The notes under the pieces were generated by a model. It saw only the letters and a list, made by a program, of their open reading frames with translations. It did not search any database and was not told the origin of the DNA. Positions 2,416 through 8,400 of a stretch of 64,000 nucleotides of DNA are shown here, piece by piece. This DNA is from Salvelinus alpinus (taxonomy: Eukaryota; Chordata; Actinopteri; Salmoniformes; Salmonidae), in the NCBI RefSeq assembly GCF_045679555.1, contig NC_092098.1:22288038-22352037 (forward strand). Reading direction: 5' to 3'. The position numbers and the translations under genes are program-made. Numbering within the stretch: the stretch's first letter is position 1; each line of letters starts with the position of its first letter.

Positions 2416-5400
2416 TCATTTAGCAGTAGCATTGCCATGAGGCAGCTGTTGCTGCTGTTGTTGCTCTGCCAGAGCCTGCTGCAGACGGGTGCGTTTCCGG
2501 GAATAGTGCTGCCAGTGCAGTAATTGCTGCTCGTCAATGAACTTGGCACATTGTGCATTCACAAGCTCCTTCCTGAAGTGCTCGTACTGAAGCAGCTCCA
2601 GCATGTGCAGGCAGTGGGGGTATCTGCATAACAAGGGAGACATATACAGTGCCTTCAGAAAGTATTCACACCGCTGATCTTTTTCCATATTCTGTTCTGT
2701 TACAGCCTGAATTTAAAATGGATTAAATTGAGATAAAATGTGTCACTGGCCTACATACAATTACCCATAATGTCAAAGTGGAATTTTTTTTTTTTTTTTT
2801 TAAACAAATTAATAAAAAAATGAAAGCTGAAATGTCTTGAGTCTATAAGTATTCAACTCTTTTGATATCACAAGTAAAGATGTGCTTAACAAGTCACATG
2901 GACTCAATGTGTGCAGTAATATTGTTTTACATCAGATTTTTAAATGACTACCTCTTCTATGTACTCCACACATAAAATTATTTGTAAGGTTCCTCACGTC
3001 GAGTAATTAATTTAACAGATTCAACCACAAAGACCAGGGATGTTTTCCAATGCCTCGCAAAAAAGGGCACCTATTGGTAGAGGTGTAAAAAAAAAAAAAA
3101 AAGCTGAAATTGAATATCCATTTGAGCATTGTGAAGTTTTAATTACAATTTAGATGGTTTATCAATACACCCAGTTACGACAGTTGAAGTCGGAAGTTTA
3201 CATACACTTAGGTTGGAGTCATTAAAACTCGTTTAGTTTTGGCAAGTCGGTTAGGACATCTACTTTGTGCATGACACAAGTAATTTTTCCAACAATTGTT
3301 TACAGACAGATTATTTCACTTATAATTTACTATCACAATTCCAGTGGGGCAGAAGTTTACATACACTAAGTTGACTGTGCCTTTAAACAGCGTGGAAAAT
3401 TTCTGAAAATGATGTCATGGCTTTAGAAGCTTCTGATAGGCTAATTGACATAATTTGAGTCAATTGGAGGTGTACACCTGTGGATGTCTTTCAGGGCCTA
3501 CCGTCAAACTCAGTGCCTCTTTGCTTGACAACACGGTAAGTCTGGTTCATCCTTGTGAGCAATTTCCAAACGCCTGAAGGTACCACGTTCATCTGTGCAA
3601 ACAATAGTACGCAAGTATAAACACCATGGGACCACGCAGCTGTCACACCGCTCAGGAAGGTGACGCGTTCTGTCTCCTAGAGATTAATGTACTTTGGTGC
3701 GAAAAGTGCAAATCAATCCCAGAACAACAGCAAAGGACTTTGTGAAGATGCTGGAGGAAACAGGTACAAAAGTACCTATATCCACAGTAAAACAAGTCCT
3801 ATATCGACATAACCTGAAAGGCCGCTCAGCAAGGAAGAAAACACTACTCCAAAACCGCCATAAAAAATCCAGACTACGGTTTGCAACTGCACATGGGGAC
3901 AAAGATGGTACTTTTTGGAGAAATGTCCTCTGGTCTGATGAAACAAAAATAGAACTGCTTGGCCATAATGATCATTGTTTTGTTTGGAGGAAAAAGGGGG
4001 AGGATTGCAAGCCAAAGAACACCATCCCAACCGTGAAGCACGGTAGTGGCAGCATCATGTTCTGGGGGTGCTTTGCTGCAGGAGGGACTGGTGCACTTCA
4101 CAAAATAGATGGCATCATGAGGGAGGAAGATTGTGGATATATTGAAGCAACATCTCAAGACATGTCAGGAAGTTAAAGCTTGGTAGAAAATGGGTCTTCC
4201 AAATGGACAATGACCCCAAGCATACTTCCAAAGTTGTGGCAAAATGGCTTAAGGACAACAAAGTCAAAGTATTGGAGTGGCCATCACAAAGCCCTGACCT
4301 CAATCCTATAGAACATTTGTGGGCAGAACTGAAAATCTGTGTGCGAGCAAGGAGGCCTACAAACCTGACTCAGTTACACCAGCTCTGTCAGGAGGAATGG
4401 GCCAAAATTCACCCAACTTATTGTGGGAAGCTTGTGGAAGGCTACTCGAATGTTTTGACCCAAGTTAAACAATTTAAAAGGCAATGCTACCAAATACTAA
4501 TTGAGTGTATTTAAACTTCTGACCCACTGGGAAAGTGATGAAAGAAATAAAAGCTGAAATTAATCAATTTCTCTATTATTCTGACATTTCACATTCTTAA
4601 AATAAAGTGGTGATCCTAACTGACCTAAAACAGTGAATTCTTACTAGGATTAAATGTCAGGAATTGTGAAAAACTGAGTTTAAATATATTTGGCTAAGGT
4701 GTATGTAAACTTCCGACTTCAACTGTATATATCATGTTTTGGGTGCCATTTTGATTCTAACAAGGTAATAATGTACTATGGTTGGATTTAAAGCTTCAGC
4801 TAATAGTTGAGTTAATTTGTGTTTTCATTCCTCCCTAACACAGAGAACCACCCAGGTGATCAACTGTAAGATCCTCTCTGTCACCCAGGTGAGATGATCT
4901 GTCAGGACTTATATAGACTCCCTCTGTGAAGTTCTATGCATGGTCCATGTCTTAGTTTATGTTTCTAAACTAGTGTATGGCTCATACAAAGTCATAGCTT
5001 TTAATATTTGGTCATTATGTGAAAAATATAATGGTAACGTTTAGGAGATTAATGTTGGTGTTGTTGAACATGATGATGATCATGATGCGGATGATGATGG
5101 GGGTGAAAGAGGATTCTGGTGATTATGGAGATGTTGGTGATGGTACTGATGGTGTTATCATTCCCCAGATGACCAGACTGGTTCTCCCACGCATGGTTGC
5201 AAGGTACATATGCATCATGGTGATATCAATGAAACGTGAATCTTAATGATTTCAATCTATGAAATTGTCCCTTTATTCACCTGTCCTGTCTTTCCCAGAG
5301 GGAACGGTTTGATCATCAACATGTCTTCAGAGGCAGGTGCTCAACCACAACCCATGCTGTCTCTCTACTCCGCCACCAAGGTGCCTCTCCCTTTCACTTA

Positions 5401-8400
5401 ACTTTCTCTCACTCAAGCAAGACAGGGAATTTTTACTAGGATTAAATGTCAGAAATTGTGAAAAACTGAGTTTAAATGTATCTGGCTAAGGTGTATGTAA
5501 ACTTCTGACTTCAACTGTACACAGATACAGGCGTCCTTTCTAACTCAGTTGCTGAAGAAAGGAAACCGCTCAGGGATTTCACCATGAGGCCAATAATAAC
5601 TTTAAAACAGTTACAGAGTTTAATGGCTGTGATTGGAGAAAACTGGATTGATCAACATTGTATACTGAACAAAAATATAAAACGCAACATGTTAAGTGTT
5701 GGCCCATGTTTCATGAGCTGAAATCATACTCACAAAAAGCTTCTCAAATTTTGTGCACAAATTTGTTTACATCCCTGTTGGTTAGCATTTCTCCTTTGCC
5801 AAGATAATCCATACACCTGACAGGTGTGGCATATCAAGAAGCTGATAAAAACAGCACGATCACAGGTGCATCTTGTGCTGGGGACAATAAAGGGCCACTG
5901 AAATGTGCAGTTTTGTCAAACAACACAATGATGCCATAGATATTTCAAGTTGAGGGAGCATGCAATTAGCATACTGAATGCAGAAATGTCCACCAGAACT
6001 GTTGCCAGAGAATTTAAAGTACATTTATCTACCATAAGCAGCCTCCAACATCATTTTAGAGAATTTGGCAGTATGTCCAGCTGGCCTCACAACCGCAGAC
6101 CACTTGACCACTTTGTTTTTCAACAGGACAATGACCCAACACACCTCCAGGCTGTGCAAGGGCTATTTGACCAAGAAGGAGAGAGATGGAGTGCTGCATC
6201 AGATGACCTGGCCTCCATAATCACCCGACCTCAACCCATTTGAGATGGTTTTGGATGACTTTGACTGCAGAGTGAAGGAAAAGCAGCCAACAAGCACTCA
6301 GTATGTGTGGGAACTCTCAAGCTGGTTGAGAGAATGCTAAGTGTGCAAAGCTGTCATCAAGGCAAAGGGTGGCTACTTTGACAAATATAAAATATATTTT
6401 GATTTGTTTAACACTTTTTTGGTTACTCCATGATTCCATATGTGTTATTTCCTAGTTTTGATATCTTCACTATTATTATACAATGTAGAAAATAGTAAAA
6501 ATAAAGAAAAACCCTTGAATGAGTAGGTGTGTTCCAACGTTTGACTGGTACAGTAGATTTTACAAATATTAAAATTGTTCTTCCACTTCGACAGAGTATT
6601 TTGTGTAGCTCATTTACCAAAAAAATGACAATTAAATACATTTCAATCCCACTTTGTAACATGTGGAAAAAGTAAAGGGGTGTGAATACTTACTGAAGGC
6701 ACTGTTGTACATACATTATACATATTGTTATACTGTGATTGATGTATATGATGCAGAAGGAAAAACAACAGTGAATCTTACTTCAGGAATTTGGCATATT
6801 CAGGCTCCTTCCAGTACAGTAGGTACTTCAGGTAGTTCACAAAGGGTTTTTCTCGCAGGTAACCCCTCTGAGCCAGAACTGGAGGGACACAGAGGAACAG
6901 AGACGAGTCACAAACAATGCTAGCTATATCTCAAATCAAATCAAATTTTATTGGTCACAGACTTTTCCCCCCCAGATGTTGAGGTGGATCACCACCTCAA
7001 GCTGAACCTCGGCAAGACGGAGCTGCTCTTCCTCCCGGGGAAGGACTGCCCGTTCCATGATCTCGCCATCACGGTTGACAACTCCATTGTGTCCTCCTCC
7101 CAGAGTGCTAAGAACCTTGGCGTGATCCTGGACAACACCCTGTCGTTCTCAACTAACATCAAGGCGGTGACCCGTTCCTGTAGGTTCATGCTCTACAACA
7201 TTCGCAGAGTACGACCCTGCCTCACGCAGGAAGCGGCGCAGGTCCTAATCCAGGCACTTGTCATCTCCCGTCTGGATTACTGCAACTCGCTGTTGGCTGG
7301 GCTCCCTGCCTGTGCCATTAAACCCCTACAACTCATCCAGAACGCCGCAGCCCGTCTGGTGTTCAACTTTCCCAAGTTCTCTCACGTCACCCCGCTCCTC
7401 CGCTCTCTCCACTGGCTTCCAGTTGAAGCTCGCATCCGCTACAAGACCATGGTGCTTGCCTACGGAGCTGTGAGGGGAACGGCACCTCCGTACCTTCAGG
7501 CTCTGATCAGGCCCTACACCCAAACAAGGGCACTGCGTTCATCCACCTCTGGCCTGCTCGCCTCCCTACCTCTGAGGAAGTACAGTTCCCGCTCAGCCCA
7601 GTCAAAACTGTTCGCTGCTCTGGCACCCCAATGGTGGAACAAACTCCCTCACGACGCCAGGTCTGCGGAGTCAATCACCACCTTCCGGAGACACCTGAAA
7701 CCCCACCTCTTTAAGGAATACCTAGGATAGGATAAAGTAATCCTTCTAACCCCCCCCCCCCCCCTTAAAAGAGTTAGATGCACTATTGTAAAGTGGTTGT
7801 TCCACTGGATATCATAAGGTGAATGCACCAATTTGTAAGTCGCTCTGGATAAGAGCGTCTGCTAAATGACTTAAATGTAAATGTAAATGTAATGTTATTG
7901 CAGGTGTAGCAAAATGCTCCAACTGTGTAGTAGTATCTAACAATTCACAACAATACACACAAATGTAAAATAATGGAATTAAGAAATATATAAATATTAG
8001 GACGAGCAATGTCGGAGTGGTACTGACTAAAATCCAGTATATACATATGAGATGAGTAAAGCAGTATGTAAACATTATTAAAGTGACTCGTGTTTAATTT
8101 TTAAAGTGACCAGTGATATCTGCAGGTTATAGTAACGAGTGTCTTTGGTTGTTCTGAGTGACAGAAAATTGAGGATAAGTTAGCTAGCTAGATAACCCAC
8201 TCACAGTTCAGATAATTCGGATTGGCCAAGCATTGGATGAACTCCAGCTCTGATTGAAAGCGGTTCCTTGCCTGCTCCTCTGTGAAATTAGACACACAAA
8301 ACAAGTTAGAGTAACATAACATTACAATTGACTTTGGGGAAAGCAGTTTGCTAGCCAAAACAGATGGCTAGGAAACCATGGGTGTGTCCAGTTCATATGT

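Follow-up and report, generated by a model that had tools for sequence, protein, structure and literature searches.

Capture of HSD17B-type exons beside Tc1 ends in a MED31 intron of Salvelinus alpinus, probably by ectopic gap filling

How did three exons of an HSD17B-type SDR gene come to lie beside Tc1 transposon ends within an intron of MED31, and did a transposon carry them there? The locus lies in a 64,000-nucleotide stretch of the Salvelinus alpinus genome (C13:22,288,038-22,352,037; hereafter the window). The initial annotation proposed a composite Tc1, the outermost ends of which mobilised the whole unit from a parent gene. Comparison with that gene and with other Tc1 copies in the assembly separates the age of the transposon from that of the captured DNA, and points to a repair event as the probable origin of the structure.

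Architecture of the insertion

The inserted unit occupies one TA and contains, in order, a Tc1 copy here called X (3181-4725), a TA (4726-4727), 691 bp of cargo DNA (4728-5418) and a 99-bp Tc1 right end (5419-5517). The features of the region are as follows.

2416-2623, minus strand: last MED31 exon, coding part (PDB match, E 1.2e-32; borders by eye)
2646-6705, plus strand: older Tc1-like element containing the insertion, with terminal inverted repeats at 2646-2690 and 6661-6705 (87%)
3181-4725, plus strand: X, a Sleeping Beauty-type Tc1 with a frameshift and an internal deletion, probably an old resident
4689-4727, plus strand: stretch in which the template would have changed from X to the parental Tc1 copy, Y (last X/Y difference at 4688)
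4728-5418, plus strand: cargo, corresponding to C13:21,647,228-21,648,092, minus strand, in an HSD17B-type SDR gene
4844-4888, plus strand: cargo exon a, 15 protein letters, with N to K relative to the parent
5169-5203, plus strand: cargo exon b, 11 protein letters plus two bases of R
5299-5380, plus strand: cargo exon c, 27 protein letters
5419, no strand: second junction, at which parent intron and Tc1 share one nucleotide (A; by eye)
5419-5517, plus strand: right end of what is most likely another Tc1 copy, Z; it has a single transposase-binding repeat, at 5492-5509
6757-6876, minus strand: MED31 exon match upstream of the insertion (human MED31 probe; its last bases extend into the intron)
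8206-8268, minus strand: further upstream MED31 exon match (human MED31 probe)

The match to the last exon, together with the two upstream matches obtained with a human MED31 probe, assigns the insertion to the last intron of MED31. The surrounding sequence is an older Tc1-like element, of which 2646-6705 is probably the full extent. Its flanks match 9512-10050 and 10054-10194, and it is continuous across the insertion if one TA is kept. The left TA has decayed to GA and the right TA is intact, such that a target TA duplication surrounds the whole unit. This single footprint favors movement of the unit as one composite element; it is also expected if a gap was filled within a resident Tc1. The older element is also broken by further repeat pieces.

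Most of the structure described in the initial annotation is borne out. A full-length Tc1, about 700 bp with exons and a second Tc1 right end are indeed present, the outer Tc1 reads across them once one TA is removed, and the captured host exons do lie beside Tc1 ends within a MED31 intron. The proposed architecture holds; the second junction, which had been placed at 5422/5423, is located at 5419.

The cargo exons and their parent gene

The three cargo exons have AG/GT borders and join into a single open frame, 54 codons long, with YSATK at its end. In the PDB, the peptide encoded by exons b and c resembles chains of SDR enzymes (nine distinct sequences at E <=0.001, the best at 1.3e-4), in agreement with the earlier description of three phase-matched SDR exons with a YSATK motif. 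Relative to the parent, the exons carry two changes, AAC to AAG at 4870, which substitutes K for the parental N, and a silent change at 5309. The substituted N is presumably the conserved Asn of the SDR catalytic set. The exons are on the plus strand and MED31 is on the minus strand, the antisense orientation previously reported, and no function is indicated for the fragment.

Alignment of the cargo to the genome, which had been suggested as a check, locates a parent gene on the same contig, ~640 kb from the window and in opposite orientation. The DNA search of the 2.37-Gb assembly finds two places, the window and this parent, as does a protein query of the cargo. Three of the 66 rows of the DNA search are real cargo matches, one for the window and two for the pieces of the parent; the remaining 63 are at most 85% identical and all fall inside query positions 298-435, a GATGAT-like stretch. 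No onward copies besides window and parent were found at the sensitivity of the assembly-wide DNA search. If sources were distributed uniformly, a random one would lie no more than 645 kb away with a probability of ~0.0005 and on the same contig with a probability of 0.025.

Judged from exon matches on both sides of the cargo stretch, the parent is a complete-looking gene of HSD17B type. With coordinates given on the reverse complement (rc) of 30 kb around the parent, a human HSD17B3 probe matches at rc 8094-8183, 8302-8412 and 10184-10252 before this stretch, and at rc 16089-16154 and 16265-16417 after it. PF00106 matches at the gene are all under its cut-off. The exact name of the gene is our assumption.

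The parent copy contains a 170-bp SINE, tRNA-headed with a UnaL2-like tail, located between ATCTG copies, where the window has a single ATCTG (by eye). Thus, copying either preceded the SINE insertion or used an allele without it. The SINE also bears on whether the fragment in the window is an assembly error. High-copy repeats are present at both borders, and misjoins are possible in principle; however, the window copy has substitutions relative to the parent and is without the SINE, while misjoined parent sequence would carry the parental bases and the SINE alike. We regard an assembly error as extremely improbable.

The Tc1 content of the parent gene matches the window at one end of the cargo. 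Tc1 copy Y, which has TA on both sides, meets the cargo there; the base at which they join and the orientation are those of X in the window. On the far side of the cargo the parent has no second Tc1 end, and ordinary intron extends past the position equivalent to 5418. A further Tc1, T2, is present downstream in the parent gene in the same orientation. The expectation that Tc1 elements would lie at the matching positions in the parental introns is therefore borne out at the cargo start, where Y abuts the same base, and fails at the cargo end.

Divergence of the transposon and the origin of the second right end

X contains the transposase domains of a Sleeping Beauty-type Tc1 and two direct repeats at each end, for four binding repeats in total (3189, 3348, 4506 and 4700). 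HTH_SB and HTH_Tnp_Tc3_2 (PF25787 and PF01498) lie in one frame and DDE_3 (PF13358) in another; X is thus frameshifted. If X and the cargo had moved as one unit, both would be equally diverged from their parental counterparts. The cargo and the adjoining 34 Tc1-and-TA bases exhibit 7/703 substitutions relative to the parent when a 22-bp microsatellite is left out, and 11/725 when it is included. The Tc1 bodies of X and Y, in contrast, differ by 86/1484 substitutions plus 13 indels (Fisher p = 1e-8, substitutions only). This inequality indicates that X did not travel with the cargo.

A 33-row Tc1 alignment provides context for these differences. It includes X, Y, two Tc1 copies near the parent and 29 loci that are the top-ranked matches to X; further matches, some at 94%, lie outside it. 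In this alignment 48 sites are altered in X only, 32 in Y only, five are shared and two are altered differently in both, and the separate changes are spread over the full length. X differs from the row majority at 3.76% of sites, with 21 private changes in 1544, and cargo divergence per lineage is ~0.5% (half of 7/703). Row divergence compared with cargo divergence suggests an age for X that is probably several times that of the capture. The alternative that X is itself a recent copy of another Tc1 is unsupported among the candidates scored: the best other copies match X at 94% over part of its length and at 90–91% near full length (40 of 13,607 candidates scored), and the best match to its last 264 bases is 95% (40 of 4,054 candidates scored).

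A common origin of X and Y could in principle have been masked, had composite transposition been followed by gene conversion from other Tc1 copies. Y is nominally the nearest to X of the 32 other rows (94.59%); the next rows, at 94.22% and lower, make this hardly an excess. Moreover, the X/Y differences are distributed over the entire element, no recent donor closely similar to X is seen among the candidates scored, and the missing second end at the parent would be left unexplained. Masking of this kind appears very unlikely.

The second right end is informative in its own right. Positions 5419-5519 and 4627-4727 are equal at 94 of 101 positions and differ at seven. Six of these differences fall within the 67 sites that precede 4694; if the two ends had diverged only since the cargo copies did, 0.67 differences would be expected there (p = 7e-5). 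The two right ends of the window most likely derive from different old Tc1 copies, on the basis of these sequence differences. The same 6/67 differences lead us to reject the idea that the right end of X was simply duplicated during the capture. The pattern at 5420-5497 has one exact occurrence in the assembly, the window itself, and 21 places match it at one mismatch, none of them on C13; within three mismatches there are 2,800 matches (1,442 forward and 1,358 reverse, window included).

These observations bear directly on the proposed composite Tc1, in which transposase would have paired the left end of X with the distal right end and moved Tc1 and cargo together from the HSD17B-type gene to the MED31 intron. 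Besides the single TA footprint, the Tc1 at the matching parental position and T2, in the same orientation further along the parent gene, favor this proposal. Several lines of evidence oppose it. First, the parental Tc1 is Y, not X. Second, the parent is without a second end, and the T2 right end differs from that of the window by four bases and a 2-bp indel (by eye). Third, the cargo has a single copy besides the parent, at the sensitivity of the DNA search. Fourth, mobilisation requires two competent outer ends, and while the left end has two binding repeats (3189 and 3348), the distal right end has one (5492) and is without the inner repeat. All four binding sites are reported as necessary for Sleeping Beauty transposition in a review (PMC7827188). 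Mobilisation of the unit by its outermost ends, as initially proposed, thus fails on the identity of the parental Tc1, the missing second end and the single distal repeat, and we consider it most unlikely. A composite of Y and T2 that later underwent internal deletion is rejected as well, because X is a different copy from Y and the second right end does not come from T2.

Ectopic gap filling and its relation to known systems

The structure is well explained, and in our judgment probably produced, by ectopic gap filling between Tc1 copies. The old Tc1 X would already have been resident at its TA in the MED31 intron when a break occurred at or near its right end. A free 3' end would then have invaded the matching right end of Y, ~640 kb away in the HSD17B-type intron, presumably inside the last 39 bases, which are identical in X and Y. 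The switch from X to Y sequence is directly visible, although the Tc1 ends are so alike that the switch point is resolvable to 39 bases only. Synthesis outward from Y into the host gene would account for the 691 bp of cargo with its three exons, which can be read in the sequence. The new strand would finally have been joined, via the 1-nt overlap visible at the second junction, to the last 99 bp of Z, leading back to the original site. Gap filling of this kind makes transposition of the unit unnecessary.

A break in X alone fails to explain right ends from two copies; an X-TA-Z pair, an extra template or a patch is required. Z may have been a neighboring copy that shared a TA with X, a further template from which the strand returned through homology of the ends, or the end of the resident element itself, in which case X would have acquired a patch. 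Abutting Tc1 ends are found at one site in the assembly and look rare. Part of the pattern could also have been produced by gene conversion that affected X or Y at a later date. Transposase may have been active in this lineage at the date of capture, since PMC9777934 describes more than 100 intact Sleeping Beauty copies in one whitefish, with elements of this type tending to be truncated in most salmonid genomes.

Captures of this general kind have been described previously. Tan et al. 2021 (PMC8277862) report 370 Pack-TIRs from 100 animal genomes, 115 of them TcMariner. The initial annotation held exon capture by composite Tc1 to be rarely documented in vertebrates; the uptake of non-transposon DNA by TIR elements is on record there. 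As in Pack-TIRs, non-transposon DNA lies here between parts of TIR elements, it has an unambiguous parent elsewhere, and it is single copy. The greater age of X relative to the capture indirectly favors an element that once stood at this site without cargo. The best reading is that the present case belongs to the single-copy Pack-TIRs, which are known from animals and are ascribed in that source to transposition-independent gap filling (PMC8277862). Further likenesses to the Pack-TIRs described there include Tc/mariner-type pieces around foreign DNA at one target-site footprint, a same-chromosome parent, short microhomology at one junction, and an element that apparently predates the capture. 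Among 281 Pack-TIRs in the same source, 59.8% have a same-chromosome origin, 160 have their parent at a distance of 15 kb or less, and 190 exhibit microhomology of 1–36 bp (median 2) at one or both breakpoints, with breakpoints tending toward the element interior (PMC8277862).

The case also has distinctive properties relative to the Pack-TIRs of that report. The breakpoints are terminal and the parent is ~640 kb away, unlike the published tendencies, which are medians and shares (PMC8277862). The filler starts at the end of another Tc1, such that the entry switch could use Tc1-to-Tc1 homology, and the two right ends, which belong to different Tc1 copies, overlap rather than leave a gap. Host DNA is likewise joined beside or inside the element in Drosophila P-element gap repair and end bypass, as summarized in PMC8277862; in those cases transposase was artificially active, whereas here no activity is shown and the carrier is not the donor-site element. 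Among the papers listed by literature searches, judged by titles and abstract openings, none describes the same event in salmonids, which is weak evidence. Engineered Sleeping Beauty 'sandwich' vectors and bacterial composite transposons also place two element copies around a cargo. Such systems depend on functional outer ends and on a donor unit, and neither is found here.

A tentative and rather doubtful extension is that Tc1 ends serve as shared break-repair addresses, by which silent families shuffle exons without transposase; the break at this locus may have arisen from near-palindromic ends abutting at one TA. If true, a broken element can copy the host flank of a distant Tc1 copy, in genomes that contain many thousands of similar copies. 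The locus is an unusually readable case, as the donor, the recipient, both junctions and the transposon of the donor are all present in one assembly. Composite transposition and repair are separable by the differing divergence of transposon and cargo, and the same test is applicable to any supposed composite transposon in repeat-rich vertebrates.

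Tc1 elements and a SINE at the parent gene

The HSD17B-type gene from which the cargo derives carries two Tc1 elements in the same orientation, Y and T2, in two separate introns (parent region, L009, L010 and L011), and a third, T3, lies near the gene. The old element in the MED31 intron has a relative here, which sits immediately upstream of Y and is oppositely oriented. A parent intron also contains a SINE, which is bordered on both sides by ATCTG:

L009 ~7753–7923, minus strand: SINE with a tRNA-Ala-derived head and a UnaL2-like 3' tail

The window copy of the cargo lacks this SINE, a difference that is relevant to the date of capture.

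Captured exon a and the old Tc1

Within captured exon a, a change from AAC to AAG at window position 4870 replaces a conserved SDR asparagine with lysine. In its right half (window 5742–6558), the old Tc1 is interrupted by pieces of other repeats: 5742–6111 has matches to pieces adjoining T2 at the parent gene, and in a within-window comparison 6159–6558 resembles 53552–53989 on the opposite strand (82.7%).

Abutting Tc1 ends

The assembly was searched for abutting ends using a 38-nt palindromic pattern with up to 3 mismatches. Compared with 13,607 Tc1 candidates in the assembly, a single site was found at which two Sleeping Beauty-type ends meet at one TA (C7:57,451,215–57,451,252; L073). Palindromes formed by abutting Tc1 ends may be unstable. 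On one side of the C7 site, the Tc1-end match is only ~45 bp long.
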